A DNA stretch of 64,000 nucleotides from Trichlorobacter ammonificans (GTDB lineage Bacteria > Desulfobacterota > Desulfuromonadia > Geobacterales > Pseudopelobacteraceae): NCBI RefSeq assembly GCF_933509905.1, contig NZ_OW150024.1, positions 1,662,001 through 1,726,000 of the forward strand, in the 5' to 3' direction. Positions 5,956 to 22,634 of the stretch are shown in pieces (the first letter of the stretch is position 1; every line of letters starts with the position of its first letter). The translations under genes were made by a program, and so were the position numbers. Under the pieces are notes generated by a model. That model was not told the origin of the DNA and searched no databases. It worked only from the letters and a program-made list of their open reading frames with translations.

Positions 5956-7300
5956 ACAGACGCTCATCTATCCGCTGCACTATCTGCGGCAGGAGCGGAT
6001 CGGCGCCTGGCTGAGCGAGGTCAGGGCGGTGAACGGTGCCAGCCGCGCCGACATCGCCCGCTACCAGCGGACCCGGCTCTGCGAGGTGGTCCGGACCGCC
6101 CGGCACAGCCCTTCTCCCGGCTACGCCCCGTTGCGCGGCGCGACGGATCAGCTCACGGAGGAGCGGATCATCGGCCTTCTGCACGACTTCCCTCCCCAGT
6201 CCAAGGAGGCGATGCGCGCCACGGTGGCGGCCGGGGGCCGTCCCCGGGGCATGGCCTCGGACTACCGCTCCACCAGCGGCTCCACCGGGCTTCCCTTCCA
6301 GTTCTACAAGGACCGCTACGCCACCGGCTTCATGGATGCGGTGCTCTATGCGGCCTACGCCTGGCACGGCATCGCTGTCGGCGACCCCCAGGCCCGCTTC
6401 TGGGGAATGCCGCTGACCCCCAGGGGGGCTGCCGTGGCGCGGATCAAGGACCTGCTGAAGAACCGGCTCAGATTTTCCGCGTTCGATCTGAGCGAGGGGG
6501 CCAGGGAATCCTACTACCGGAGTCTGCACCGCTTCCGTCCCGCCTACTTCTATGGCTATCCGAGCCTGATGGCCACGTTCTGCGGTCACCTGCTGGAACA
6601 GGGCCGCACCCTGCGTTCCCTTCCGCTGAAGGCGGTGATCGGCACCGGCGAATATCTCTACCCGCAGGAGCGGAAGCTGGTGGAAGAGGCCACCGGCGTC
6701 CCCTTTGTCAACGAATACGGTTGCACCGAAGTGGGAATTATCGGCTTCGAATGCCCCCGGCAGAACCTGCACGTCATGTCCGCCAACATCTACCTGGAAG
6801 TGTTGAAGGACGGCAGGCCGGTGCTGGATGAAGCCGGGGATATCCACGTGACCGAACTGCATACCCGCTCCACCCCCTTTATCCGCTACAGCCTGGGGGA
6901 CCGGGGCATCCTCTGCAGCGCCCCCTGCCCCTGCGGCAGTTCCCTGCCGGTCATGCAGGTACTCTCCGGCCGCAAGGACGACTACGTGCTCACCCCGGAT
7001 GGCCGGAAAGTGTACGATGCCATCTTCGCCTACACCCTGAAGCGGGGGGTGAGCCGCTTCAGGGCGGTCCAGACCGCCGTGGACCGGATCGAGATCGCCA
7101 TTGTGCCCGGCACCGACTATTCGCCGGAGCTGGGCAGTCGCTACGTCAGGGAGTTGCAGAGGCACCTGGGTGCAACCGTGACCATTGCCATTTCCCTGGT
7201 GGATACCATTGAGCGGGAACCGTCGGGCAAGCTGCGCTATTTCCGCAACGCCATGGCAGCCCGGACCGGCCGTATTCCAGAGGAGCACGGACAACCATGA
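5936..7300 (+). CDS. PaaK/CapK-like adenylate-forming enzyme
   Basis: A 454-residue member of the phenylacetate-CoA ligase-like branch of the ANL superfamily. The phosphate-binding motif STSGSTGLPFQF is at about residues 112-123, and the adenylate-binding EYGCTEVG at about 261-268. A Cys pair (SAPCPCGS) occurs near residue 325, as in many PaaK-like proteins. Members encoded in capsule and exopolysaccharide loci are annotated CapK and are thought to activate a carboxylate for acylating or aminoacylating a sugar; that is family-level inference. The gene overlaps both neighbours (20 bases upstream, 4 downstream), so it is tightly co-translated with the glycosyltransferases. Confidence 0.82.
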   Translation: MNRRLAEQTLIYPLHYLRQERIGAWLSEVRAVNGASRADIARYQRTRLCEVVRTARHSPSPGYAPLRGATDQLTEERIIGLLHDFPPQSKEAMRATVAAGGRPRGMASDYRSTSGSTGLPFQFYKDRYATGFMDAVLYAAYAWHGIAVGDPQARFWGMPLTPRGAAVARIKDLLKNRLRFSAFDLSEGARESYYRSLHRFRPAYFYGYPSLMATFCGHLLEQGRTLRSLPLKAVIGTGEYLYPQERKLVEEATGVPFVNEYGCTEVGIIGFECPRQNLHVMSANIYLEVLKDGRPVLDEAGDIHVTELHTRSTPFIRYSLGDRGILCSAPCPCGSSLPVMQVLSGRKDDYVLTPDGRKVYDAIFAYTLKRGVSRFRAVQTAVDRIEIAIVPGTDYSPELGSRYVRELQRHLGATVTIAISLVDTIEREPSGKLRYFRNAMAARTGRIPEEHGQP

Positions 7301-9648
7301 GCCATCCTACCGTATCGATCATCATCCCCGCACGCAATGAGGCGCAGAACCTTCCCGGCGTACTGGCCGCCCTGCGGGCGGCTGTTGCCGAGTATCCGGG
7401 ACGGTGTGAGCTGCTGCTGATCGACAACGGTTCCACCGACGCCACCCGGGAGGTCGCGGCGGCCCACGGCTGCGCGGTCTACGAGGACCGAACCGCCTCC
7501 ATCGCGCGACTGCGCAACATCGGGGTCGAAAAATCGACGGGAACGATCGTTGCCTTCCTGGACGCCGACTGCCTGGTCCATCCCCGCTGGCTTCATTCCT
7601 GCGTGGCGAAGCTCGGCAACGACGCCATCGGCCTCACCGGAACCCGCGCCGTTCCCGACTTCAAGAACGCCACCTGGGTGGAGCTGGCTTGGTACCGGCT
7701 GGTCTCCGGCGTGGAGCGGCCGGACCATCCCCCCTGGATCGGCTCTTCCAACATGGTCATCCATCGCGACCTGTTCCGGGCCGTGGGCGGCTTTGACGAA
7801 CACCTGACCACCGCCGAGGATGTGAACCTCTGCCACAAGGTACGCCAAAGCCACCTGGTCTGCCTGAACAAGGAGATCGACACCATTCATCTGCGGGAGT
7901 CCAAGACCTTGGGCAACCTGCTCAGGCGTGAACTCTGGCGCGGCGCCGGGAGCATCCGCCAGTTCCGGGACAGCAGGCGCAAGCGGGACGACGCGCCGAG
8001 CGTGCTAGTCCCGACCCTGCACCTGGCAGCCATCTGCACCCTGCCGCCGCTGCTGCCGTTCAGCATGACGGCGACGGGACTGCTGTTCGCCCTGCTGCTG
8101 CTCCTGCCACTGGCCCTGATCCACCGGAAAAAGGCGCTGGTGGGCGGTATCGCCGATTTTGCAGCAGTCTACCTGGTGGCCTCCGTGTTCCTCCTGGCAC
8201 GGGCCCTGGCCGTTGGAGTCGAACTGGCCGCCATGACCGCGGCAGCGGCAACGAAGCTCTCCCCCGGCCTGTTCGCCCCGGGGCGCGCCACGGTACGCTC
8301 CCTGCTGCTGCTACTGCTCATCCTGGGCAGTGGCCCGCTCTGCTTCGGCGAGATTCTCTTCGAAGAGAACTTCGACGCCCAGCCGGACTGGAACGTCACC
8401 AACAGCTACACCGCCGAATGCGCCGGCGCCTGCGCCACCGCACCGCCCAACTGGTCCAACTACCGCACCGTGCCCGGCACTGCCGCCCTTGCCAACCCCA
8501 CCGGCTCCATCCGGCGCCTGCCGGGCTCCCTGCCGGACCATGGCGGCGGCACCGGCAAGGCCTACATCGTCTACAACCAGTCGGTGGCCGGTGTGAACTG
8601 GCCCGGCGACGCCACCCTGGTCAAAGTGCTGCCCCGTGACTACCCGGAACTGTACATCCGCTTCTGGATACGGACCCAGGACAACTGGCAGACCGTGCCC
8701 AATGCCCAGTCAAAAATCTTTCGGGCCTACCACTGGGACCGTACCGGCAACCTCTTCCAATTTTTCAGCACCGGCACCGTGAACCCGGCCTACATCTGGG
8801 ACTGGTCCACCAACAGCGCCAACAGCGCCACCTACATGAACGCCTACCGGTGCGACCCCCAGGAGACCAACTACTACTGCACCGCCCCCGGCGTTCCCTC
8901 CTACCAGTTAAACGACTACTACCAGCGTTGGGGCAACGGCCCGGCCGGCAACGTCTATGCCGACGGCCGCTGGCACCGCTACGACGTGCACCTGAAGATG
9001 AACGACATCGGCAGCAACAACGGCATTCTTGAGTGGTGGTGGGACGGCGTGCTGATAGAGAGCCGCCGGGATGTGCAGTGGAAGGGGGCAACCGGCTCCG
9101 ATCCGGTAATCGGCTGGAACACCATCGCCATCGGCGGCAACAGCAACAACACCTTTTCCGGCGCAGTTCCCGCCGACCAGTGGTATGCCATCGACGACCT
9201 GGTGGTGAGCAGCACCCCCCTGGTCACCCCCTCGGCCGGGACCGGCAGCAGCATCAGCCCCGCCGCCGTCCAGAGCCCCGCCCAGGGCGGCAGCGTCACC
9301 TTCAGCGTCACTGCCCTGCCGGGCTACGGCATCGTCGCGGTCAGCGGCTGCAACGGCACCTTGAACGGCACCAGCTACACCACCGGTCCCCTTGACGGCA
9401 ATTGCAGCGTAAACGTCAGCACCGCGGCACGCACCGCCAGGACCGAGGGAAGCCCGCTGCCGACGGAGAATGACTTGCTGCGCCTGCTGGGGGCGGCCAC
9501 CGGCAGCCTCACCCTGGGGCCGGACGACAGCATCCGCTACGACGTGGCCCCCCTGGGGAGCGACGGCATTCCCCGGGGCAACGGCCGGGTGGACAGCGCC
9601 GACCTGATACTGGCGGCCCGCCGCAGCATCGGCATCGGCAGCTGGTAA
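7297..9648 (+). CDS. GT2 glycosyltransferase fused to an exported lectin-like region with dockerin-like tail
   Basis: A 783-residue chimera. Residues 1-235 are a GT2 catalytic domain (VSIIIPARNEA, IDNGSTDA, FLDADC, then TTAEDVNLCHKV). Residues 245-310 hold membrane helices. A leucine-rich helix at about 331-350 reads like a signal peptide ending in CFG and leads into about 280 residues (EENFDAQ...DQWYAIDDLVV) that closely match the N-terminal part of the secreted protein at 20004. A bacterial repeat with GYGIVAVSGCNGTL follows, and the last 35 residues (GNGRVDSADLILAARRS) look like one dockerin-type calcium loop. An internal ATG near 8232 could start a separate secreted protein, so this may be two genes fused in frame. 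Overlaps the previous stop by 4 bases. Confidence 0.75.
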   Translation: MSHPTVSIIIPARNEAQNLPGVLAALRAAVAEYPGRCELLLIDNGSTDATREVAAAHGCAVYEDRTASIARLRNIGVEKSTGTIVAFLDADCLVHPRWLHSCVAKLGNDAIGLTGTRAVPDFKNATWVELAWYRLVSGVERPDHPPWIGSSNMVIHRDLFRAVGGFDEHLTTAEDVNLCHKVRQSHLVCLNKEIDTIHLRESKTLGNLLRRELWRGAGSIRQFRDSRRKRDDAPSVLVPTLHLAAICTLPPLLPFSMTATGLLFALLLLLPLALIHRKKALVGGIADFAAVYLVASVFLLARALAVGVELAAMTAAAATKLSPGLFAPGRATVRSLLLLLLILGSGPLCFGEILFEENFDAQPDWNVTNSYTAECAGACATAPPNWSNYRTVPGTAALANPTGSIRRLPGSLPDHGGGTGKAYIVYNQSVAGVNWPGDATLVKVLPRDYPELYIRFWIRTQDNWQTVPNAQSKIFRAYHWDRTGNLFQFFSTGTVNPAYIWDWSTNSANSATYMNAYRCDPQETNYYCTAPGVPSYQLNDYYQRWGNGPAGNVYADGRWHRYDVHLKMNDIGSNNGILEWWWDGVLIESRRDVQWKGATGSDPVIGWNTIAIGGNSNNTFSGAVPADQWYAIDDLVVSSTPLVTPSAGTGSSISPAAVQSPAQGGSVTFSVTALPGYGIVAVSGCNGTLNGTSYTTGPLDGNCSVNVSTAARTARTEGSPLPTENDLLRLLGAATGSLTLGPDDSIRYDVAPLGSDGIPRGNGRVDSADLILAARRSIGIGSW

Positions 9649-11440: not shown

Positions 11441-11778
11441 TAATATACCATTTTACATCTCATCTTCAGTCCATATTTGCCACCCCTTCAATCGCAAAAT
11501 CCTCTGCGTTGCTCTGCGGTTTTGCTCAATCAGAGATGACAAACCTGACCTAAATCTGAGCGTAAATCTGGTACATCAGCAAATTCCAACCCCCTTAGCA
11601 GCCTGCTACAGAGTTTCGCCATCGTTTGTGTCCATTTTGTTCTTGTCTTTCCATCTATCCAAAGCTACCTTTTTTACCGTTTTATCATCATCAATCTCTT
11701 CCCCTGACCATTGATGAGGGGGGAGAAGATCGGCCAGTGGATGAAAGCGCACGCGGTTGACACATGGAGAATAAAGGG
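11441..11778. other. Intergenic stretch before the restriction operon
   Basis: AT-rich, with stops in all frames and no convincing gene. It must hold the promoter of the restriction operon, but no clear -35/-10 pair or hairpin stands out. The sequence joined the lipoprotein gene directly before the IS insertion. Confidence 0.5.
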
Positions 11779-14010
11779 ATGAGTGATTTACAGATTAAGC
11801 GCGACGAGAAGAAGGGGAAAATCTGGAGCCATGTGCGCAGCAAGTGGCTGGTGGAAACGCCCGAAGAAACGGTGCGTCAGGAATACTTACTGCTGTTGGT
11901 CAACGAATATGGTTTTTCCCTTGATCAGATTGCCGAAGAGATGGACTTGACCGGTCGGGGCTCGGCCTCCGCCCGTGCAGACTTTGTCATCTGGCGCACC
12001 GCTCAAGACAAGGCCGACGACAACGCCCCCTTCATCATCGTCGAATGCAAATCCGATAATGTCACCATCAAGCCGCAGGATTACGGCCAGGGCGAAAACT
12101 ACGCCCGCATCTGCGGCGCTCCGTTTTTCGTCACTCACAACTCGCGGGAAACCAAATACTGGCGAGTCAAGAAAGACAAGGTACCGGGCTACACCGAAGA
12201 GATCGAGAACATTCCTCATGGCGACGCCTCCGACAAAGACATCGAGGAGTTGCTTTCCAAGCTCCGTGCCTTCAAAGAAAAAGAGTTCGCCGACCTGCTG
12301 CACAAGTGTCACAACATCATCCGCAACCGGGAGAAAAAAGATCCGGCCGCTGCCTTCGATGAAATCGCCAAAGTGCTGTTCATCAAGGTCTACGTGGAAC
12401 GCCAGTTATTAACACGACGCAACAAGACCAACCTGTTTACCGTTGATGTACTGAAAAATCAGATCGCCGAAAACCCGTTGGACAACCTCTTTCAAGAAAC
12501 CAAGCGGGCTTACGCCACCGATAAAATTTTTGAAGATGACGAGCGTATTAATCTCAAACCGGCCACAGGAGAGGCCATCGTCAAGGAGTTGGAGAAATAC
12601 AACCTTTCCGACACCAGCGAGGACGTGAAAGGTGTCGCCTTCGAACGCTTCCTTGGCCGTACCTTCCGGGGCGAGATCGGCCAGTTCTTCACCCCGCGTA
12701 CTATCGTTGAATTTATGGTGCACATGGTCGATCCCCAGGAAGACGACATTGTCTGCGACCCGGCCAGCGGTTCAGGCGGGTTTCTGATCCGGGTTTTTGA
12801 AATCGTGCGTGAAAAAATTCTTGCCGACGCTGATCGAGAGTACAGCGCCTTCAAGGCCGAAGTGGAGAAAGACAAGTCGCTCACCGAGGAGCAGCGGGCC
12901 AAAAAGCTTCAGGACAAATTCACCGAGGTGCAGGCGCTCATCGACCAGAAGCGCGAAGGTTCTCGTCTGTGGAAGCTTTCCAATCGCTGCATCTACGGTA
13001 CCGACGCCAACGACCGCATGGCCCGCACCAGCAAGATGAACATGATTATGCACGGCGACGGCCACGGTGGTGTTCACCACCACGACGGCTTTTTGAACGT
13101 CAACGGCATCTTCGAGGGGCGCTTTGACATCATCCTCACCAATCCGCCCTTCGGCGCTAATGTCGAGCCCACCGACAAGGTGCTGGAGGTGGATATTACC
13201 GTTAACCCGGCGGCGCAAGAGCGATACACAAAAGAATACGGCGACCTCTACCGCGAGGCCCAGAATCGGGTGAAGGCGGCGCTTAATCAACCCATAGCCA
13301 AGTTATTTGAATTACCCAAAAGCTCTGTGAACAGTAAAGGTGAAGCAACATACGGCAAGATTAAAACCGAGGTGCTGTTTATCGAACGTTGCCTTGACCT
13401 GCTCAAGCCCGGCGGCCGCCTTGGCATTGTCCTGCCGGAAGGCATTTTCAACAACCCATCCCTCGCCTACGTGCGCGAGTTCACTGAAGACCGCGCCTTC
13501 CTCCGCGCTGTGGTCAGCCTGCCGCAGGAGACCTTTGTCAGCTCCGGGGCCAGCGTGAAATGCTCGTTGCTCTTTCTGCAGAAATTCACTGAAGAGGAAC
13601 AGCAGAAGTTTGACAAGACTTATGCCACGGCCAAGGCGGAGGTAGAAGCCCGGTATGCCGACGAGATCAAAGCGGAACGGGAGCGGTTGGAAAGCGAAAT
13701 CGAGGCGGCCAAGCAGGCCAAGGACACAGAAAAGCGCAAGGCCCTGCAAACGGAACTCAAGGACTACCTAAAGGCGATGGAAGTCCGGCAGATCACCGAG
13801 GCGCGGCAACTGCTCAAGGAACGTTTCGACTATCCCATCTTCATGTACGAGGCGGAAAAGGTCGGCATCTCCGCCACCGGCGAGGAGGATAAGAACGAAC
13901 TCTACCCCAACGCCAACCAGCCTGCCGATTGCGACAAGACCTGCCTGGAGTGGTATCGGGAGTTTCTGGCCGACCCGAGCGCCTTTGCCGTTGCTGGAGG
14001 TACTGAGTAA
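11779..14010 (+). CDS. Type I-like/BcgI-like restriction-modification subunit: nuclease fused to N6-adenine methyltransferase
   Basis: A 743-residue protein combining cleavage and methylation. The N-terminal about 150 residues resemble the HsdR N-terminal PD-(D/E)XK nuclease (ARADFVIW, then IIVECKS with the E-x-K pair). The methyltransferase core has SAM motif DPASGSGGFL at about residue 327 and catalytic NPPFGA at about 454. A coiled-coil rich in Lys/Glu (about 620-680) precedes the end. No separate HsdR is present, so this A-type subunit plus the next gene's specificity subunit would form a complete enzyme, as in type IIB BcgI-like systems. ATG 11779 is chosen over 11764 because GGAG lies 9 bases before it. 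The stop overlaps the next start (TAATG). Confidence 0.85.
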   Translation: MSDLQIKRDEKKGKIWSHVRSKWLVETPEETVRQEYLLLLVNEYGFSLDQIAEEMDLTGRGSASARADFVIWRTAQDKADDNAPFIIVECKSDNVTIKPQDYGQGENYARICGAPFFVTHNSRETKYWRVKKDKVPGYTEEIENIPHGDASDKDIEELLSKLRAFKEKEFADLLHKCHNIIRNREKKDPAAAFDEIAKVLFIKVYVERQLLTRRNKTNLFTVDVLKNQIAENPLDNLFQETKRAYATDKIFEDDERINLKPATGEAIVKELEKYNLSDTSEDVKGVAFERFLGRTFRGEIGQFFTPRTIVEFMVHMVDPQEDDIVCDPASGSGGFLIRVFEIVREKILADADREYSAFKAEVEKDKSLTEEQRAKKLQDKFTEVQALIDQKREGSRLWKLSNRCIYGTDANDRMARTSKMNMIMHGDGHGGVHHHDGFLNVNGIFEGRFDIILTNPPFGANVEPTDKVLEVDITVNPAAQERYTKEYGDLYREAQNRVKAALNQPIAKLFELPKSSVNSKGEATYGKIKTEVLFIERCLDLLKPGGRLGIVLPEGIFNNPSLAYVREFTEDRAFLRAVVSLPQETFVSSGASVKCSLLFLQKFTEEEQQKFDKTYATAKAEVEARYADEIKAERERLESEIEAAKQAKDTEKRKALQTELKDYLKAMEVRQITEARQLLKERFDYPIFMYEAEKVGISATGEEDKNELYPNANQPADCDKTCLEWYREFLADPSAFAVAGGTE

Positions 14011-15398
14011 TGGGTGAAGTGGCACAAGCCAGACTACGAGCCTTTAGCATCGGCTTCGGAGGTTTGCAGACCTGGAGCGTTGCAGCTCAGTTCGCTATTA
14101 ACTGGAACTGGCCTGATGAGGTCATCAAACCGTTGGCCAGCATCATCAGACGTCGAAACGAAGCCGCTTTGGAGACGCTAGCTCCGGAATCCATGGTTAC
14201 CCTGCTGACCATTCGTTTTGATGGCTCGATTGAGCCGCGCGAGCCGGTCCACATAAAGGACATCAAAGGACGGCTGTTTCGTGTCTACCCCGGCGATGTG
14301 GTTTTTTCAAAAATTGATGTGCGCAATGGAGCAATCGGACTTGCTCCCGATGACATTGAGTGCATGTGTGTCACCTCCGAATTTCCTGTTTATTCCGTCG
14401 ATTTCCAAAAAACAGATTCGGGATACGTGAAACTCCTGTTCCGAACAGTTGCGTTCAAGAGATTACTGAATTCGATGATTAGCGGTGCATCGGGCCGAAA
14501 ACGGATTCAGCCAACCCAGCTTGAGGGGGTAAAAGTCCCAATCCCCGCGCTGCCGATCCAGCAGAAAATTGTGGCCCATTGGGAGGCGGCGCTAACTAAA
14601 GCCAATGACCTACTGGCCCAGGCAGACCAATTGCCTGGTAAATTGGAAAACCAAGTATTGGGAGAGCTTGGGCTCAAAAAAAAGAAACGAAAAACCATGC
14701 CAAAGGTAATGGTTACAAATTGGGCGGAGCTGACCAAATGGAATCAACGGTCCACCTATCTATTAGGCCAGGCACCGGACCTGGGCAAAGGCATCTACCC
14801 CGTTGTAAACGGACGAGAGTGCATAGCGGAGGTGAAGCATGGGTGTTCGGCGAGTCCTAGCAGTAAGCCAACAACTCTCAAGGTGCTAAAACTTAGTGCC
14901 GTCACAAGCGGTCACTTCCTGCCTTCCGAAGCGAAATTCATTGCAGACAAGAAGCAGTTTCGGGAGAACTTCGACCTTATAAAGGGCGACATTCTCATGT
15001 GCCGGACTAACGGGACACTTGCCTATGTTGGTCGCCCAGCGATTTTGGAGAAGGATTATCCCGAGCTGATTTTCCCGGACAAACTGATGCGAGTTCGATG
15101 TAAGGCCAACATTCTCCCTGAATACCTCGAATACATATTGAGCAGCAGCATCGCTCGCCCTCAACTTGAAGCAAACGCCAGAACGGCCGTAGGCAATCAT
15201 GCCATCGGCAATGAGGATGTGTTCAATGTGGAACTGCCACTCCCACCGATTTCTGTGCAAAATATACTCATCAAGATAGTTCAAGAAGCAAGAAGTGATA
15301 TCCAGCATGCTAAGGGAGAGGCACTCAGCTTACAAAGGAATGCTGAACAAGAAATCGAAAAAATGATTCTCGGCACCCGCCCGGTGGAGGTGCACTGA
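14010..15398 (+). CDS. Restriction-modification specificity subunit (HsdS-like)
   Basis: A 462-residue DNA-specificity protein with two target-recognition domains. The first ends with LEGVKVPIPALPIQQKIVAHWEAAL, followed by a helical spacer. The second contains LKVLKLSAVTSGHF, GDILMCRTNGTLAYVG and ends NVELPLPPISVQNILIKIV, again followed by a helix. This half-repeat design (TRD-helix-TRD-helix) is standard for HsdS and for BcgI subunit B. It is translationally coupled to the methyltransferase-nuclease. Recognition sequence cannot be read from the protein. Confidence 0.88.
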   Translation: MGEVAQARLRAFSIGFGGLQTWSVAAQFAINWNWPDEVIKPLASIIRRRNEAALETLAPESMVTLLTIRFDGSIEPREPVHIKDIKGRLFRVYPGDVVFSKIDVRNGAIGLAPDDIECMCVTSEFPVYSVDFQKTDSGYVKLLFRTVAFKRLLNSMISGASGRKRIQPTQLEGVKVPIPALPIQQKIVAHWEAALTKANDLLAQADQLPGKLENQVLGELGLKKKKRKTMPKVMVTNWAELTKWNQRSTYLLGQAPDLGKGIYPVVNGRECIAEVKHGCSASPSSKPTTLKVLKLSAVTSGHFLPSEAKFIADKKQFRENFDLIKGDILMCRTNGTLAYVGRPAILEKDYPELIFPDKLMRVRCKANILPEYLEYILSSSIARPQLEANARTAVGNHAIGNEDVFNVELPLPPISVQNILIKIVQEARSDIQHAKGEALSLQRNAEQEIEKMILGTRPVEVH

Positions 15399-15399
15399 T

Positions 15400-17037
15400 A
15401 TGTCCCGTGGCCGCCAATACATTGAATTCGAGGGACTGTTTTCGGAAAGCGTGCTGGGTATCTTCCGCATCATCAGAGGTTTTGCCGACCTGCGCGATTT
15501 GGCGGCTGTCTCCGTGCCCTACAAGATGGAGGACGGTGAGCAGGGCTTTCGGGTGGTCGGCCATCAACGGGTGGAATCGGCCAAGCACGCTGAAGAGATC
15601 AAAAACTACCTGGAAAAGAGCGAGAACCGTTTCCTCCCGGAAGTGATCCTTTCCGTTCGTTCACCAGTAAAACTGATGGTCAACCGAGGTGAGATAGACC
15701 CCGACGAGTTGGGGCTTGGCGAGACGGTATTCGGTGTCAAAGGCGAGAGTGGTGGTCTGGTCGATATCTCTCGTCGGTATTCGAGCCCAACCATGCGCAT
15801 GCAACGGTTGCGCGTGCGGTGCAACAACCTGGAACAACTCAAACAAGATAAAATCATCCGACGCATCGATGGCAATCACCGCCTGCATCTAGCCGAACAA
15901 CTCACCGAAGATCAACATCGTCCAACGAAATATTTGGCTCCGTTTTGTTTTGTATTACTCGGGCCGCCAGGCAACAGCTATGATGACTATGCTGAATCGC
16001 TAATTTTCCATACTATCAACAGTACCGGTCTGCCACTGGAGTCGGAACACAGTCTGCGGCTGCTGCTAGGACAGGATCCGGCGCACGCCATGACGCCGGA
16101 TAACGAATTCGCCTACAACCCTGCGCTGCACCTCACGAGGCTCTTGTCTGACCGGCTGCGCGGACTGCCGCAACCCGCCCGACAACGCTTCGGTGAGCGA
16201 CCGTTGTCGGCGCTATGGGAGTCGGCCCGCAATCTGATCGCCATGGACGGAAGTATCGCCCAGAACCGCCAAACTTTGACTACCTTTGCCTATGACCTGT
16301 TTGCAGCGCTGGCCGACATCGCCACCCTACTGACCGTCAACCATCCATCGCTATGCGGCACTTACGGTTTCTTCGAGCTGGCGGCGCGGGTCTGGCGTGA
16401 AGCAGAAGGAGAAAATCACGAGCAAAGAGTCCACTGGTCGGTGAACTATCTCGACCGCATCGGGCATTGGCTCGGCGGTCAGGGCATCACCAGCCTGCTT
16501 GATCCACTCTCTCCTGCCGAGCAGTTGCTCAAAACCTTCAAGGCGGCACTGTCCCGTATTCCCAAACGGGTCTTTCTCGCCCGTTGGTATCCAAGTCAGC
16601 AGCATGGTGCAACCGAGGCCGATGTCACAAAGGCAACATTACGGCTGCAACAGTTCCGACAAACTCTGACAAATCTCCAACAGCAACACGGCATCGGCCT
16701 AGAGTTGATCGACATGGGCACGGAAGAAGGGGGCACGTTTCCGATTCACAGCCGGATGTACGAGGCTATCGCCTCCTCGGACATCATCATCTGCGACCTG
16801 ACCGGCCATCGGCCCAATGTTTACGTGGAAGCGGGCTACGCCCTGAAACATCACGAGAGCAATCGGCTTATTTTCCTGTTCGAACCAACCGATGCCGACG
16901 ACCGGGTGCCATTCGACCTGAGCACTTTTAAGTATGTGCCCATCACCCAGGCAGCGGAAATCCCTAACCGTTTGAGGCCGGAACTTGAATCGATCTTGCA
17001 AAGTGCTGGTGCTTTACTCAGAGGAACTAGGGTATGA
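15400..17037 (+). CDS. DGQHR-like domain protein fused to a TIR/deoxyribosyltransferase-like C-terminal domain
   Basis: A 545-residue protein lying 1 base after the specificity gene. The N-terminal half resembles the DGQHR/DndB-like fold: GFRVVGHQRVESAKHAEEIKNYL, FLPEVILSVRSP, then RRIDGNHRL with the signature at residues 157-161. The C-terminal part (about 388-520) reads as a Rossmann-like effector: RVFLARWYPS, then SSDIIICDLTGHRPNVYVEAGYAL and RLIFLFEP. The NVYVEAGYA motif, with a candidate catalytic Glu at 477, is the pattern of nucleoside 2-deoxyribosyltransferase-like and TIR-like glycosidases. I infer a DNA-state sensor wired to an NAD- or nucleotide-cleaving effector. Not a gene I recognise as characterised. 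Confidence 0.6.
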   Translation: MSRGRQYIEFEGLFSESVLGIFRIIRGFADLRDLAAVSVPYKMEDGEQGFRVVGHQRVESAKHAEEIKNYLEKSENRFLPEVILSVRSPVKLMVNRGEIDPDELGLGETVFGVKGESGGLVDISRRYSSPTMRMQRLRVRCNNLEQLKQDKIIRRIDGNHRLHLAEQLTEDQHRPTKYLAPFCFVLLGPPGNSYDDYAESLIFHTINSTGLPLESEHSLRLLLGQDPAHAMTPDNEFAYNPALHLTRLLSDRLRGLPQPARQRFGERPLSALWESARNLIAMDGSIAQNRQTLTTFAYDLFAALADIATLLTVNHPSLCGTYGFFELAARVWREAEGENHEQRVHWSVNYLDRIGHWLGGQGITSLLDPLSPAEQLLKTFKAALSRIPKRVFLARWYPSQQHGATEADVTKATLRLQQFRQTLTNLQQQHGIGLELIDMGTEEGGTFPIHSRMYEAIASSDIIICDLTGHRPNVYVEAGYALKHHESNRLIFLFEPTDADDRVPFDLSTFKYVPITQAAEIPNRLRPELESILQSAGALLRGTRV

Positions 17038-18077
17038 GCGCAAAATCTATCTACCAGCCTCCCTACACCATCACCACGGAAATTCTCAACCGGGTCGCCG
17101 CCATCAGCGAGGTCATCGGGCGGCTGACCGTGCTCACCGACCAGTCCAGAGCATTGCGGCTGCGGCGTATCAACCGCGTCCGCACCATCCACGGTTCGCT
17201 GGCCATCGAGGGCAACACCCTGAGTGAGGCGCAGATTACCGCGATTCTGGAGGGTAAGCGGGTGATAGCCCCGCCCCGCGAGGTACAGGAGGTGAAAAAC
17301 GCCCTGGCTGCCTATGACCGTTTTGACGCGTGGCACCCGGAAGCGGAAAAGGATCTGCTGGAGGCGCATCGCCTGCTGATGTCCGGCCTGATCGATGAAG
17401 CGGGAACATACCGGCGCGGCGGCGTGGGGGTGATGGCAGGCCGACAGGTCATCCACATGGCGCCGCCTGCGGATCGGGTGCCGCAGCTGATGGGCAACCT
17501 TTTCCGCTGGCTGACCACCACCGACGCCCATCCGCTCATAGCCAGTTCGGTCTTTCACTATGAGTTCGAATTTATTCATCCCTTTGCTGACGGCAACGGC
17601 CGCATGGGGCGGTTATGGCAAAGCCTGATCCTTGCCCGCTGGAATCCCCTTTTTGGCGACATCCCGGTGGAAAGCCTGATCTTTGAGCACCAGGCCGAGT
17701 ATTATCAGGCGTTGCAGGAGAGCACCCGTCAGACCGATTCCGCGCCTTTCATCACCTTCATGCTGCGGATGATCCTGGATACCGTAGCCTCTTCCGCCCC
17801 CCAAGTCGCCCCTCAAGTCACCCCCCAAGTCGGCGAGCTGGTAGCCGTGCTACAGGGAGAGATGGGCCGCGAGGCGTTACAGTCGGCTCTCGGCCTGCTG
17901 GACCGCAAATCCTTCCGCGAGCGCTACCTCAAACCGGCCTTGGCCCACGGCCTGATTGAGATGACCGTTCCAGATAAACCCAACAGCCGCCTGCAGAAAT
18001 ACCGCCTTACCGACAAGGGCCGTCAGCAGCGTATGCACCTTGGCGATGGCTACCATCACATCGACTCCGGTCAGTAA
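17034..18077 (+). CDS. Fic/DOC family protein (predicted AMPylase) with N-terminal inhibitory helix
   Basis: A 347-residue Fic protein. The catalytic loop HPFADGNGRMGR is complete (residues 182-193; His182). An inhibitory motif of the S/T-xxx-E-G type occurs at SLAIEGN (Ser55, Glu59), which places it in class II, autoinhibited by its own N-terminal helix. A short Q-V-A/T-P repeat (about 255-266) links to a C-terminal winged-helix-like region with LMxxxKSFRERYLKPAL-type sequence. Fic enzymes transfer AMP to hydroxyl groups of target proteins. The 4-base overlap with the upstream gene puts it in the restriction operon; Fic genes are recurrent passengers of restriction loci. Confidence 0.92.
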   Translation: MSAKSIYQPPYTITTEILNRVAAISEVIGRLTVLTDQSRALRLRRINRVRTIHGSLAIEGNTLSEAQITAILEGKRVIAPPREVQEVKNALAAYDRFDAWHPEAEKDLLEAHRLLMSGLIDEAGTYRRGGVGVMAGRQVIHMAPPADRVPQLMGNLFRWLTTTDAHPLIASSVFHYEFEFIHPFADGNGRMGRLWQSLILARWNPLFGDIPVESLIFEHQAEYYQALQESTRQTDSAPFITFMLRMILDTVASSAPQVAPQVTPQVGELVAVLQGEMGREALQSALGLLDRKSFRERYLKPALAHGLIEMTVPDKPNSRLQKYRLTDKGRQQRMHLGDGYHHIDSGQ

Positions 18078-19577: not shown

Positions 19578-19593
19578 TGTGACGATCGTCACA
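19578..19593. promoter_or_regulatory. Perfect CRP-type palindrome
   Basis: TGTGACGATCGTCACA is a perfect 16-bp palindrome and an exact match to the CRP consensus TGTGA-N6-TCACA. Its centre (19585.5) is about 41-46 bases upstream of the start expected from -10-like hexamers TACAGT (19615) or TACAAT (19620), the class II activator position for the downstream riboswitch transcript. A CRP/FNR-family protein is the likely binder. Confidence 0.7.
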
Positions 19594-19640
19594 TTTTTCC
19601 GGGGGGGATTGGGCTACAGTACAATCACAACTGAATAGAA

Positions 19641-19717
19641 CGAACCGATAATACTCAACCATCCGCGAGGGTGGGGCGGAAAGCCTACAGGGTCTCACCG
19701 AGACAGCCGGGTTGCCG
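19641..19717 (+). promoter_or_regulatory. GEMM-I riboswitch 1, A20-type (candidate cyclic AMP-GMP sensor)
   Basis: The aptamer has the GEMM-I layout: P1b stem CCATCC-GCGA-GGGTGG with a GNRA loop, the GGCGGAAAGCC strand, a second hairpin and the closing AGCCGGGTTGCCG strand. Aligned to the Vc2 c-di-GMP aptamer, the base equivalent to G20 is A (in ATACTCAACC), and positions 21 and 46 are C and G where Vc2 has G and C, a covariation that supports the alignment. A20 aptamers of this class in Geobacter are known to respond to 3',3'-cGAMP. The 3' strand is shared with a terminator. Confidence 0.85.
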
Positions 19718-19760
19718 AAGATCAAATGATGCTTTTGATTACCGGCGCCCGTTTTTTTTT
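19708..19760 (+). terminator. Riboswitch 1 expression platform: ligand-gated terminator
   Basis: CGGGTTGCCG (19708-19717), which is the aptamer's closing strand, can pair with CGGCGCCCG (19743-19751) followed by nine T residues. The loop between them holds its own hairpin (ATCAAA/TTTGAT). Aptamer and terminator are mutually exclusive, so ligand binding should prevent termination (an ON switch). Confidence 0.75.
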
Positions 19761-19830
19761 GCAGCGCCGCAATGAAGGACAAGGAGGTGACACCGTATAC
19801 CCGGGACGTGCTGCGGCACGGACCACCTGT

Positions 19831-19915
19831 TTCCGACAACGGTAAACCCAGCGCAAGCTGGGGGCACAAAGCCACGGGTCCCGAAGATTGCACAGCCGGG
19901 ATAGCCGGGCTGCCG
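19831..19915 (+). promoter_or_regulatory. GEMM-I riboswitch 2, G20-type (candidate c-di-GMP sensor)
   Basis: A second GEMM-I aptamer in tandem. P1b is CCCAGC-GCAA-GCTGGG, followed by GGCACAAAGCC and the closing strand AGCCGGGCTGCCG. In the same alignment the Vc2 G20 position is G (in AACGGTAAACC) and the 21/46 pair is G-C, so c-di-GMP specificity is expected, unlike riboswitch 1. The spacing of every element equals that of Vc2 through the AAAGCC strand. Confidence 0.85.
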
Positions 19916-19965
19916 AAGAAACAGATTCTCCCTTGGTTTACGCATCAACGGATGATCTGTTTCTT
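19916..19965 (+). promoter_or_regulatory. Leader hairpin after riboswitch 2
   Basis: AAGAAACAGAT (19916-19926) pairs perfectly with ATCTGTTTCTT (19955-19965). No T-run follows, so it is not a classical terminator. It may be an anti-terminator arm or a translation-control stem; the ribosome binding site (AGGGAGAAG) lies at about 19991-19999. Confidence 0.5.
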
Positions 19966-20003
19966 GATCACGCACACGCAAACCTTACAAAGGGAGAAGA
20001 ACC

Positions 20004-22634
20004 ATGAAACCCAACGTGTTGAAACAAAAATTGCTGACATACCTGCTGACCCTGTCATGCCTGGTACTGACGGCGATCCCCTCCCACGCCGGGGTCATTT
20101 TCGAAGAAAGCTTCGATGCCCAGGCCGACTGGAACGTCAACAACATCTACAAAACCGAATGCGCCGGCACCTGCACCACCGCACCGGCCAACTGGTCCAA
20201 CTACCGCACCGTGCCCGGTACCTCCGCCCTCACCAACCCCACCGGCTCCATCAGGAAACTGCCCGGCTCCCTGCCCGACCGTTCCGGCAGCGGCAAAGCC
20301 TACATCGTCTACAACCAGTCGGTGGCCGGCGTGAACTGGCCCGGCGATTCTACCCTGGTAAAAGTGCTGCCCCAGGACTACCCGGAACTGTACGTCCGTC
20401 TCTGGATCAAAACCCAGGCCAACTGGAAGACCGTGGCCAATGCCCAGTCCAAGGTGTTCAGGACCTATCACTGGGATCGTAGCGGCAACCTGTTCCAGTT
20501 CTTCAGCTCCGGCACCGTGAACCCGGCCTACATCTGGGACTGGTCCACCAACGGCAGCAATAACGCCAGCTACATGGACGCCTATCGCTGCGACCCGCAG
20601 GAGACCAACTACTACTGCACCGCCGGCGGCGTGCCGTCCTATCAGCTGAACGACTACTTCTACGCCTGGGGCAGCGGCGGCGCCACCACCAAGTACGCTG
20701 ACGGCCAGTGGCACCGCTATGACTTCCACCTGAAGATGAACGACATCGGCAAGAACAACGGCGTCATGGAATGGTGGTGGGATGGCGTGCTGATGGAAAG
20801 CCGCACCGACGTGCAATGGAAGGGTGCCTCCGGTTCCTCCGCATCAATCGGCTGGAACACCGTCTCCATCGGCGGCAACAGCAACAACACCTTCTCCGGT
20901 TCCACCCCGGCCGATCAGTGGTATGCCATTGACGACCTGGTGGTGTCCACCACCCCGATCCCGGCCGACTACGCCATTGGCGGCGGCAGCAGCTCCACCG
21001 CCGATACCACGGCGCCAACGGTGTCCCTGGCCGCGCCGGCCAATAACGCCAGCGTGAGCGGCAGCGTTTCCCTGACCGCCAACGCCGCCGACAATGTGGG
21101 GGTGAGCAAGGTTGAATTTTATCTGGACGGCGCCCTGCTGGCAACGGACAACAGCGCTCCCTACCAGTTCTCCTGGGACAGCTCCAGTGCCGCCGCCGGC
21201 AGCCACACCGTGATGGCCAAGGCGTTCGACGCCGCCGGTAACGTGGGACAGTCCGCAACGGTGACCGTCAACGTGGTGCGGGACACCACGCCCCCCACCG
21301 TGTCGCTGACCTCGCCGGCCAATAACGCCACCGTGAGCGGCAGCGTATCGCTGACCGCCAGTGCCACCGACAACGTTGGGGTGAGCAGGGTCGAATTCTA
21401 CAGCAACGGCACGCTGCTCAGCGCCAGCAACCAGGCTCCCTACAACTACACCTGGAGCCCGGCCGCCGGCAGCTACAGCCTGAGCGCCAAGGCATTCGAC
21501 GCGGCCGGTAACGTGGGGCAGTCCTCCACCGTGTCGGTGACCGTGGCAAGCGCCCCTGCCGCCGACACCACCGCCCCGACGGTTGCCATCACCTCGCCCG
21601 CCAACAATGCGGTGGTAAACGGCACGGTGCAGAACACCGTAGCCGTGGCCGACAACGTGGGCGTGACCAAGGTTGAGTACTATGTGAACGGCGGCCTGGA
21701 CTACAGCAGCACCACCGCACCGTTCAGTTACAGTGTGGCCACCACCGTTGCCCACAACGGTACCTACACCATGTACGCCAAGGCCTATGACGCCGCCGGC
21801 AACGTGAAGCAGTCGTCCACGATCACCTTCACGATCAAGAACGGCACCACCACCGCCGACACCACGGTGCCGACCGTGGCGCTTACCGCCCCGGCCGCCA
21901 ATGCAACGCTCAGCGGCAGGGTGAATGTGACTGCATCCGCCTCCGACAACGTGGGGGTGAGCAAGGTTGAGTTCTACCTGAACGGCGCACTGAAAAGCAC
22001 GGCAACCGCCGCTCCCTACAGCTTTGCCTGGGACACCACCACGGTTGCCGACGGAAGCCACACCCTGCTGGTGAAAGCCTCTGACGCGGCAGGCAATACG
22101 GCGCAATCCAGCGTATCGGTGACCGTAAAGAATGCGGTACAGGCCGCCAGCTCCCTCTGGTCTGCCGGCGACCTGCCGAGCATCATCGACGTGGGCCCGG
22201 ACAGCCCGGTGGAACTGGGGGTGAAATTCCGCTCCGACGTGGCCGGCTACATCACCGGTATCCGCTTCTACAAGGCAGCCGCCAACACCGGTACCCATGT
22301 GGCCAACCTCTGGTCCAGCAGCGGCAGACGGCTGGCAACCGCCACCTTCAGCAACGAGACCGCTTCGGGGTGGCAGCAGGTTACCTTCGCAACACCGGTA
22401 GCCATCAGCGCCAATACCGTCTATGTGGCCTCCTACCACACCCGCACCGGCCACTACAGCGGCAGCCTGAATTTCTTCACCGGCAAGGCACAGATAAGCG
22501 CACCGCTGCGTGCCCTGGCCGACGGCGAATCAGGTTCCAACGGCGTCTATGCCTACGGCAGCGCCGGCTCCTTCCCCAGAAACAGCTGGAAAGGGAGCAA
22601 CTACTGGGTTGACGTGGTCTTTAAGGCCAAGTAG
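20004..22634 (+). CDS. Secreted multidomain protein: lectin-like region, four Ig-like repeats, DUF4082
   Basis: An 876-residue exported protein. A signal peptide (ending IPSHAG, about residue 31) precedes about 300 residues (EESFDAQADWN...DQWYAIDDLVV) that are a close paralogue of the exported region of the gene at 7297. Then come four Ig-like repeats starting DTTAPTVSL or similar, each with DNVGVSKVEFY and a closing HT/Y...AKAFDAAGNV, typical of bacterial extracellular adhesion or matrix proteins. The last 160 residues (ELGVKFRSDVAGYITGIRFYK, then NYWVDVVFKAK) are a DUF4082 domain. No anchor is visible, so it is probably released or bound to polysaccharide. Expression is governed by a CRP-type site and two tandem cyclic-dinucleotide riboswitches, which points to a biofilm or surface role. 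Confidence 0.88.
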   Translation: MKPNVLKQKLLTYLLTLSCLVLTAIPSHAGVIFEESFDAQADWNVNNIYKTECAGTCTTAPANWSNYRTVPGTSALTNPTGSIRKLPGSLPDRSGSGKAYIVYNQSVAGVNWPGDSTLVKVLPQDYPELYVRLWIKTQANWKTVANAQSKVFRTYHWDRSGNLFQFFSSGTVNPAYIWDWSTNGSNNASYMDAYRCDPQETNYYCTAGGVPSYQLNDYFYAWGSGGATTKYADGQWHRYDFHLKMNDIGKNNGVMEWWWDGVLMESRTDVQWKGASGSSASIGWNTVSIGGNSNNTFSGSTPADQWYAIDDLVVSTTPIPADYAIGGGSSSTADTTAPTVSLAAPANNASVSGSVSLTANAADNVGVSKVEFYLDGALLATDNSAPYQFSWDSSSAAAGSHTVMAKAFDAAGNVGQSATVTVNVVRDTTPPTVSLTSPANNATVSGSVSLTASATDNVGVSRVEFYSNGTLLSASNQAPYNYTWSPAAGSYSLSAKAFDAAGNVGQSSTVSVTVASAPAADTTAPTVAITSPANNAVVNGTVQNTVAVADNVGVTKVEYYVNGGLDYSSTTAPFSYSVATTVAHNGTYTMYAKAYDAAGNVKQSSTITFTIKNGTTTADTTVPTVALTAPAANATLSGRVNVTASASDNVGVSKVEFYLNGALKSTATAAPYSFAWDTTTVADGSHTLLVKASDAAGNTAQSSVSVTVKNAVQAASSLWSAGDLPSIIDVGPDSPVELGVKFRSDVAGYITGIRFYKAAANTGTHVANLWSSSGRRLATATFSNETASGWQQVTFATPVAISANTVYVASYHTRTGHYSGSLNFFTGKAQISAPLRALADGESGSNGVYAYGSAGSFPRNSWKGSNYWVDVVFKAK

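Follow-up and report, generated by a model that had tools for sequence, protein, structure and literature searches.

The messengers cGAMP and c-di-GMP are distinguished by a single base and come from related GGDEF enzymes, and how a cell keeps them apart is an open question. The locus studied here, in a 64,000-nt stretch of the Trichlorobacter ammonificans genome (hereafter the window), poses this question within a single leader, in which two GEMM-I aptamers that differ at nucleotide 20 stand in tandem before one gene. An earlier note on this DNA had proposed that the leader reads both messengers, possibly as a logic gate, behind a CRP site. Based on our results, we consider it probable, without being able to call it firm, that this leader is a two-messenger gate working in two steps, aptamer 1 turning transcription ON with cGAMP and aptamer 2 turning translation OFF with c-di-GMP. 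Papers cited below by PMC number were covered in part only, and what we take from them is limited to the portions covered.

Two GEMM-I aptamers with different bases at position 20

Rfam cmscan was run on both strands of the whole window (one overlapping lower match of the same clan was omitted by the tool), and apart from two GEMM-I aptamers on the forward strand (Table 1) it gave no match above the gathering score on either strand. The covariance alignment, together with a coordinate check, places A at nucleotide 20 of aptamer 1 and G at nucleotide 20 of aptamer 2, as had been claimed for this tandem; another base at that position of the first aptamer would have refuted the claim. The flipped 21/46 pair invoked in support of the alignment is also real, being C/G in aptamer 1 and G/C in aptamer 2. 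In an alignment of 17 sequences, pairs 21-46 and 22-45 show standard pairing in 100% of cells with both sides varying, and the register is secure because these columns pair throughout while both of their sides change.

Nucleotide 47 is A in both aptamers. Aptamer 1 passes the criterion for the GEMM-I fold as well as that for A20, and aptamer 2, in whose alignment C92 is present, passes the c-di-GMP-I criterion of a GEMM-I fold with G20, A47 and C92. The top-scoring model for aptamer 2 was RF03167 (c-di-GMP-I-GGC), an identity that we rejected because nucleotide 47 is A and not G; we took G47 as the pocket criterion of this family from its printed consensus, from which the meaning of the name "GGC" was also inferred. 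Outside the pocket, aptamer 2 resembles RF03167. A20 is the published determinant of cGAMP recognition. We infer that aptamer 1 is of the cGAMP type and aptamer 2 of the c-di-GMP type, with neither binding nor expression data at hand.

Table 1. Features of the leader and of the gene behind it (positions within the window)
Feature	Position	Strand	Basis
CRP-like dyad TGTGACGATCGTCACA, centre 54 nt before the first aptamer match	19578..19593	.	0 mismatches; not beyond chance in the window alone
-10-like TACAGT	19615..19620	+	Coordinates; same element and spacing in G131 by eye
Aptamer 1, GEMM-I, A20 (19653), C21-G46, A47; inferred cGAMP-type (GEMM-Ib)	19643..19719	+	RF01051 41.2 bits (cut-off 35); coordinates; A3 group alignment
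Intrinsic terminator, stem 19708-19751 and U run 19752-19760 (nine T)	19708..19760	+	Folds, coordinates
SD-like AAGGAGGTGA between terminator and aptamer 2	19781..19790	+	Coordinates; G131 motif; similar in other mixed arrays by eye
Aptamer 2 P1, 5' strand CUGUUUC	19827..19833	+	Folds, coordinates
Aptamer 2, GEMM-I, G20 (19841), G21-C46, A47; inferred c-di-GMP-type	19832..19918	+	RF03167 72.1 bits (cut-off 59); RF01051 67.8 bits
Competing hairpin, AAGAAACAGAUU (19916-19927) with GAUCUGUUUCUU (19954-19965), no U tract	19916..19965	+	12 bp, folds
Aptamer 2 P1, 3' strand GAAACAG, common to the competing hairpin	19918..19924	+	Folds, coordinates
Anti-SD UUCUCCCUU	19926..19934	+	9 bp match to SD, shuffle fraction 0.002
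SD AAGGGAGAA of the downstream gene	19990..19998	+	Coordinates, folding
Regulated gene, 876 aa: signal-like N-terminus, N-terminal domain, four Big_7 stretches, C-terminal DUF4082	20004..22634	+	Domain matches

The genome has a third GEMM-I element, with A20 and G21-C46, at G000:C1:2812200-2812278 (L002 1501-1579, minus strand), which precedes a response-regulator gene with an HD domain (HD-GYP-like). By inference, cGAMP may also act on the turnover or breakdown of c-di-GMP.

Recurrence of mixed A20/G20 arrays

In G131, a genome of the same genus, an A20-then-G20 pair stands before the orthologous gene, and the anti-SD, the SD and the competing hairpin are conserved together with the core, P2, P3 and terminator overlap of aptamer 1. 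A model built for this purpose was run on 142 sources, the window plus 141 loci with partial overlaps. The sources were mostly centred on the best-scoring GEMM-I matches, to which all matches of the genus and pattern hits were added, and because they are not a random sample the counts cannot be read as population frequencies. Of the 191 distinct aptamers found, 129 have G, 56 have A and 6 have C at position 20. Counting as an array any group of aptamers with starts less than 600 nt apart, we obtained 17 mixed arrays (13 of the form A20>G20 and four A20>A20>G20), and in every one of them A20 comes first and G20 last; the opposite order occurs in none of the 17, nor among adjacent pairs of the set up to 1500 nt apart. 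According to the tool's labels they span 15 genomes, 10 genera and 3 families; since they are related by descent they do not amount to 17 independent events, and the 10 genera are the safer figure. A pattern that itself demands the order yielded 7 of the 17, only G008 and G012 rest on it alone, and the remaining 15, window included, also came from order-neutral searches. A short-spacing pattern run over 277 genomes of the class gave three arrays, all already in the set.

Predictions on order and platform were fixed before two hold-out sets were fetched, 40 G20-centred and then 89 A20-centred loci. Known arrays were left out (in the second set the four places G054:C26, G020, G123 and G008, L251 among them), L253 and L267 duplicate the places covered earlier by L131 and L137, and two matches were dropped, a weak one in L210 (20.9 bits) and one truncated at the end of L265. 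No mixed array was found in either set (0/40 and 0/89 loci), which leaves the predictions neither confirmed nor broken; the second set contained 23 A20-only arrays and one C20>A20 array among 91 groups. Because the hold-outs held none, mixed arrays appear to be uncommon beside pure ones, an absence that is partly due to the choice of loci.

Several other arrangements were seen in these searches. Six A20...G20 pairs in genus g21 (L165, L172, L188, L190, L192, L193) were not counted as arrays; in these the distance from the A20 aptamer to the G20 pair downstream is 758-811 nt, and an open frame that looks hemerythrin-like by eye separates the aptamers in L188, in L193 and in a like pair of the hold-out locus L233. 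GEMM-I aptamers with C20, whose ligand is unknown, occur at L185 1211-1301, at L317 712-794 and in five single-aptamer groups, one of the C20 aptamers standing behind a G20 aptamer and one before an A20 aptamer. In L008 (1154-2704) and L010 (1454-3091) an open frame runs through the G20 aptamer and in frame into the main gene, and in L008 an SD and an ATG can be seen by eye between the aptamers.

The arrays also bear on the promoter. The putative CRP site is the sole zero-mismatch dyad (TGTGA-N6-TCACA) of the window, and this part of the earlier note stands as an observation. Taken for the window alone, it does not demonstrably rise above chance: two dyads with at most one mismatch are found there against 1.21 expected from shuffles. 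Its support is the recurrence in mixed arrays. Such a dyad stands 30-130 nt ahead of the first aptamer in 10 of the 17, compared with 0.4% of shuffled stretches, and in nine of these its centre is 52-60 nt from that aptamer. G008 and G012 instead have a perfect dyad in the interval between their aptamers. The -10-like element of the window is 29.5 nt from the dyad centre, and because this spacing is matched in G131 (by eye) a class-II arrangement is suggested, with an inferred transcription start near 19627 and the dyad at about -41.5. A simple scan prefers another promoter-like site at 19624-19652 (1 found, 0.5 expected) and also flags the dyad itself as terminator-like (1 found, 0.9 expected). 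The genome has two PF00211 cyclase matches and two CRP/FNR-family proteins, the latter both far below the CRP equivalog cut-off. A candidate reader of the dyad is encoded immediately after a GGDEF gene, by a cNMP-binding gene of the CRP/FNR family (L085 18-1725, G000:C1:1627550-1630735).

Downstream proteins of 10 of the 17 arrays include nine with fn3 matches (three of them below the cut-off), four with InlB-like repeats, one with Big_7 and one spore coat U protein, and, judged by their domains, the regulated proteins resemble proteins of the cell surface or matrix. The product of the gene in the window had been described as secreted and Ig/lectin-like. The signal-like N-terminus, judged by eye, and the Big_7 stretches agree with the first two terms, and "lectin-like" is weak, with a single sub-threshold Polysacc_lyase_14 match (21.3 bits, cut-off 27) to its credit. 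An AlphaFold model of the N-terminal domain (3 sequences) reached a pLDDT of 36, and 16 of 141 genomes of the order encode relatives of this domain. A paralogue in the window (7297-9648) fuses a glycosyltransferase family 2 domain to this N-terminal domain (78% identity) and lies behind other glycosyltransferase-like genes without a riboswitch; in G131 a second copy of the domain, about 81% identical, adjoins the mixed array (L057 4360-5226). Upstream of the leader, at 11764-18077, reading alone indicates type I restriction-modification-like genes (HsdM-like, HsdS-like), one further, unassigned frame and a Fic-like gene.

Platforms of the two aptamers and the predicted sign of each switch

The stem of the first terminator overlaps in folding the 3' strand of aptamer 1, and the bases that it takes are those expected to hold the ligand and P3. 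This overlap agrees with the proposal that the aptamer competes directly with a terminator; a simple terminator scan of the window did not report the site. Because the terminator takes over strands of the aptamer, aptamer 1 is predicted to be an ON switch: with cGAMP bound it would keep its 3' strand, the overlapping terminator would be blocked and transcription would continue. A precedent is pilM, described as switching transcription ON with cGAMP; its terminator sequesters the C that pairs with the ligand (PMC9262584). The SD-like motif that follows the terminator has no evident start codon in the window, and its function is unknown.

Aptamer 2 has a platform of a different kind, an anti-SD that the earlier note missed. 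The hairpin that competes with its P1 (shuffle fraction 0.000 of 500) carries in its upper stem the anti-SD, which is complementary to the SD of the gene; it has no U tract, and no terminator was found at this aptamer. When the window was folded with P1 forced, the mean unpaired probability of the SD was 0.005 and anti-SD/SD pairing 0.96, versus 0.57 and 0 with the competing hairpin forced. The arms of this hairpin are identical in G131; in unconstrained folding the window favours the competing hairpin and G131 the masked SD. Because forced P1 masks the SD and the forced competitor partly frees it, aptamer 2 is predicted to be a translational OFF switch. Bound c-di-GMP would let P1 hold GAAACAG, which would block the competing hairpin, release the anti-SD and mask the SD, as in Vc2, a translational OFF switch run by P1 (PMC9262584).

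Since aptamer 1 is predicted ON and aptamer 2 translational OFF, the gate would read "cGAMP AND NOT c-di-GMP". A CRP/FNR-family site is inferred to drive the transcript, and the secreted Ig-domain protein would be made when cGAMP is present and c-di-GMP low. The leader meets the definition of a bi-mechanism tandem, a transcriptional and a translational platform in one leader, by its anatomy only; the A AND NOT B logic is a prediction from anatomy and folding in which the responses to the ligands are inferred. With the second platform, the idea of a logic gate has gained a concrete predicted sign.

The mixed arrays also show a contrast in platforms. Terminator-like sites, called by one automatic rule for all aptamer classes, follow A20 members in 21/21 cases in mixed arrays and 25 of 31 single A20 aptamers; they follow 15/17 last members of pure G20 arrays and 54 of 69 single G20 aptamers, and only 8 of the 17 G20 members of mixed arrays. 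Four of these eight (G008, G012, G062 and G059:C78) were judged genuine by energy and place; the calls in G054, G063, G026 and G119 were discarded as weak, inside a gene or the SD hairpin itself. By our reading, an anti-SD can be assigned close behind the G20 aptamer in 13 of the 17 mixed arrays, and its match to the SD exceeds shuffles (fraction <=0.006) in 9 of the 13, is borderline in G059:C63 (0.024) and does not exceed them in G054, G023 and G119 (0.06-0.144). None of the four terminator-type arrays has a match beyond shuffles.

The P1 pairs and anti-SDs used for the SD-opening and shuffle calculations were set by hand; an automatic choice of P1 mis-assigned several helices, and only its anti-SD and competitor matches were used (in G119 its best match differs from the anti-SD set by eye). 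When a short region is folded, a formed P1 adds 2.1-7.8 kcal/mol to the cost of opening the SD in 13/13 arrays; with a longer region that includes the upstream spacer the sign holds in 12/13, G023 being reversed (-1.6). With P1 forbidden, the SD of the short region is more than 20% unpaired in two arrays only (0.48 in the window, 0.52 in G123). In the other 11 it is predicted to be mostly masked in both states, so that switching there would need co-transcriptional folding. When the stretch from anti-SD to SD was shuffled, 12/325 versions reached the observed difference (3/25 for the window alone) and the shuffled mean stayed positive in 11 of the 13 arrays. Part of the effect of P1 on the SD is thus generic. 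The 11 masked arrays and the 3/25 count slightly lowered our confidence in the proposed gate.

This calculation counts against an AND gate in which both aptamers are ON, cGAMP relieving termination and c-di-GMP exposing the SD: P1 makes the SD harder, not easier, to open. The idea has a basis in relatives of aptamer 2. In G008 and G012 its G20 homologues share its P1 (CUGUUUC/GAAACAG), and behind them comes a terminator, GAAACAG...CUGUUUC with a long U run; as that terminator shares the P1 strand, c-di-GMP should be ON in these two arrays. The window and G131 keep a competing hairpin of this type with its U run lost, which counts against the same ON design there. By eye, one can also imagine a pairing of the SD-like motif upstream of aptamer 2 with the anti-SD that encloses a formed P1. 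Folding with the spacer gave no support for this motif as an anti-SD sink, and by eye it mismatches the variant anti-SD of G023. We regard the AND gate as unlikely.

The preferred gate, cGAMP AND NOT c-di-GMP, further supposes that two messengers are read. Aptamer 1 might still answer c-di-GMP in the cell, in which case both aptamers would read this one messenger at two steps, and affinity of A20 aptamers for c-di-GMP has been reported: in D. acetoxidans one A20 aptamer gained affinity for cGAMP while its affinity for c-di-GMP fell perhaps only slightly (PMC9481103), and one Geobacter riboswitch is described as sensing both (PMC6456294). Opposite signs on a single ligand would, by inference, make little sense. 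The A20/C21-G46 group of aptamer 1 is strongly conserved, with 91% mean column identity over 22 chosen members (alignment A3), and in 130 of 141 genomes of the order a model of the group has matches, some of them possibly G20 aptamers. Moreover, 5 of 8 copies of the regulated gene family in G031, G040 and G045 are immediately preceded by A20 aptamers of this group, with no G20 partner found in the fetched stretches. In G036, two A20 aptamers near a copy of the family precede a different gene. Finally, the genome appears equipped for cGAMP: one of its 22 GGDEF matches (G000:C1:2096823-2097296) is Hypr-like, with serine in the GHxxG[D/S] position (GHLVGS) and the RxxD site kept. Its best PDB match, 6d9m, has the same GHLVGS and is by its description the T4-lysozyme-Geobacter GGDEF fusion of PMC6456294, a paper that reports on GacA mutated at S347 and on I-site inhibition by c-di-GMP. 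A single-messenger device seems to us quite unlikely on these grounds.

We are more doubtful still that aptamer 1 is vestigial, unable without P1 to outcompete the terminator and leaving aptamer 2 alone to regulate a read-through transcript. Its P1 is indeed almost absent (-1.0 kcal/mol, the same in the G131 counterpart). This measure discriminates poorly, because the median over 56 A20 members (-4.5 kcal/mol) is close to the shuffled median (-4.25). One G031 and two G040 A20 aptamers that precede members of this gene family are likewise without P1, so that the lack of it may characterize the group rather than signal decay; the published Cd1 binds its ligand without detectable P1 (PMC9262584), and G131 keeps the core, P2, P3 and terminator overlap of aptamer 1. 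That two independent GEMM-I elements merely ended up as neighbours in one leader can be rejected, even with GEMM-I elements in 136 of 141 genomes of the order and pure tandems frequent, in view of what G131 keeps, the same order in 17/17 mixed arrays and their contrast in platforms. A shared leader that reads two messengers is supported by the G131 pair, by 15 further mixed arrays and by the Hypr GGDEF, with the identity of the ligands unproven.

Comparison with known systems

If our reading is true, the leader would arbitrate between two chemically similar messengers by RNA alone, in that cGAMP licenses completion of the transcript and c-di-GMP then vetoes its translation, and two steps in fixed order would be a compact answer to the question of how cells keep the two apart. 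That this is a recurrent module of Geobacter relatives, a leader that subtracts c-di-GMP from cGAMP in fixed order, often behind a CRP-type site and before large secreted proteins of Ig or fibronectin type, is a generalization to which we lean only slightly. In G. sulfurreducens, the cGAMP synthase is moreover held in check by c-di-GMP (PMC6456294), and the loci that had mutated after 17 years on an electrode include a GEMM riboswitch located before an FNIII-domain gene (PMC13194489); whether it belongs to a mixed array is unknown.

The aptamers and the platforms are each known; their combination and fixed order we did not find described in the literature covered. No description of a mixed cGAMP/c-di-GMP tandem came up in the sources searched, and Kellenberger 2015 and Nelson 2015, which were not covered, could mention one. 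A 2022 review of tandem riboswitches counts 347 c-di-GMP-I doublets, not split by base 20 in the portions covered, and its Table 2 has no cGAMP/c-di-GMP pair, the closest entry being AdoCbl/c-AMP-GMP with a count of 1 (PMC9481103). The tandem GEMM-Ib pairs of G. sulfurreducens, for example upstream of omcAHG, also place two GEMM-I aptamers in series; unlike the mixed pair of the window, they are described as GEMM-1b, both of the cGAMP type (PMC6456294, without its supplements).

With the cGAMP riboswitches (GEMM-Ib; pilM of G. metallireducens and pgcA of G. sulfurreducens), aptamer 1 shares A20, a terminator that takes over its strand and a predicted ON response (PMC9262584, PMC6456294), whereas in the window P1 is nearly absent and a G20 aptamer with a translational platform comes next. 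Aptamer 2 is like the c-di-GMP-I aptamer Vc2 in G20, A47 and P1-driven translational control (PMC9262584), and differs from it in standing behind a cGAMP-type terminator switch in the same leader. In having two independent switches per leader, the arrangement resembles the described tandem logic gates: SAM-II/SAM-V likewise joins one transcriptional and one translational switch, and ZTP/THF-I likewise follows A AND NOT B logic (PMC9481103).
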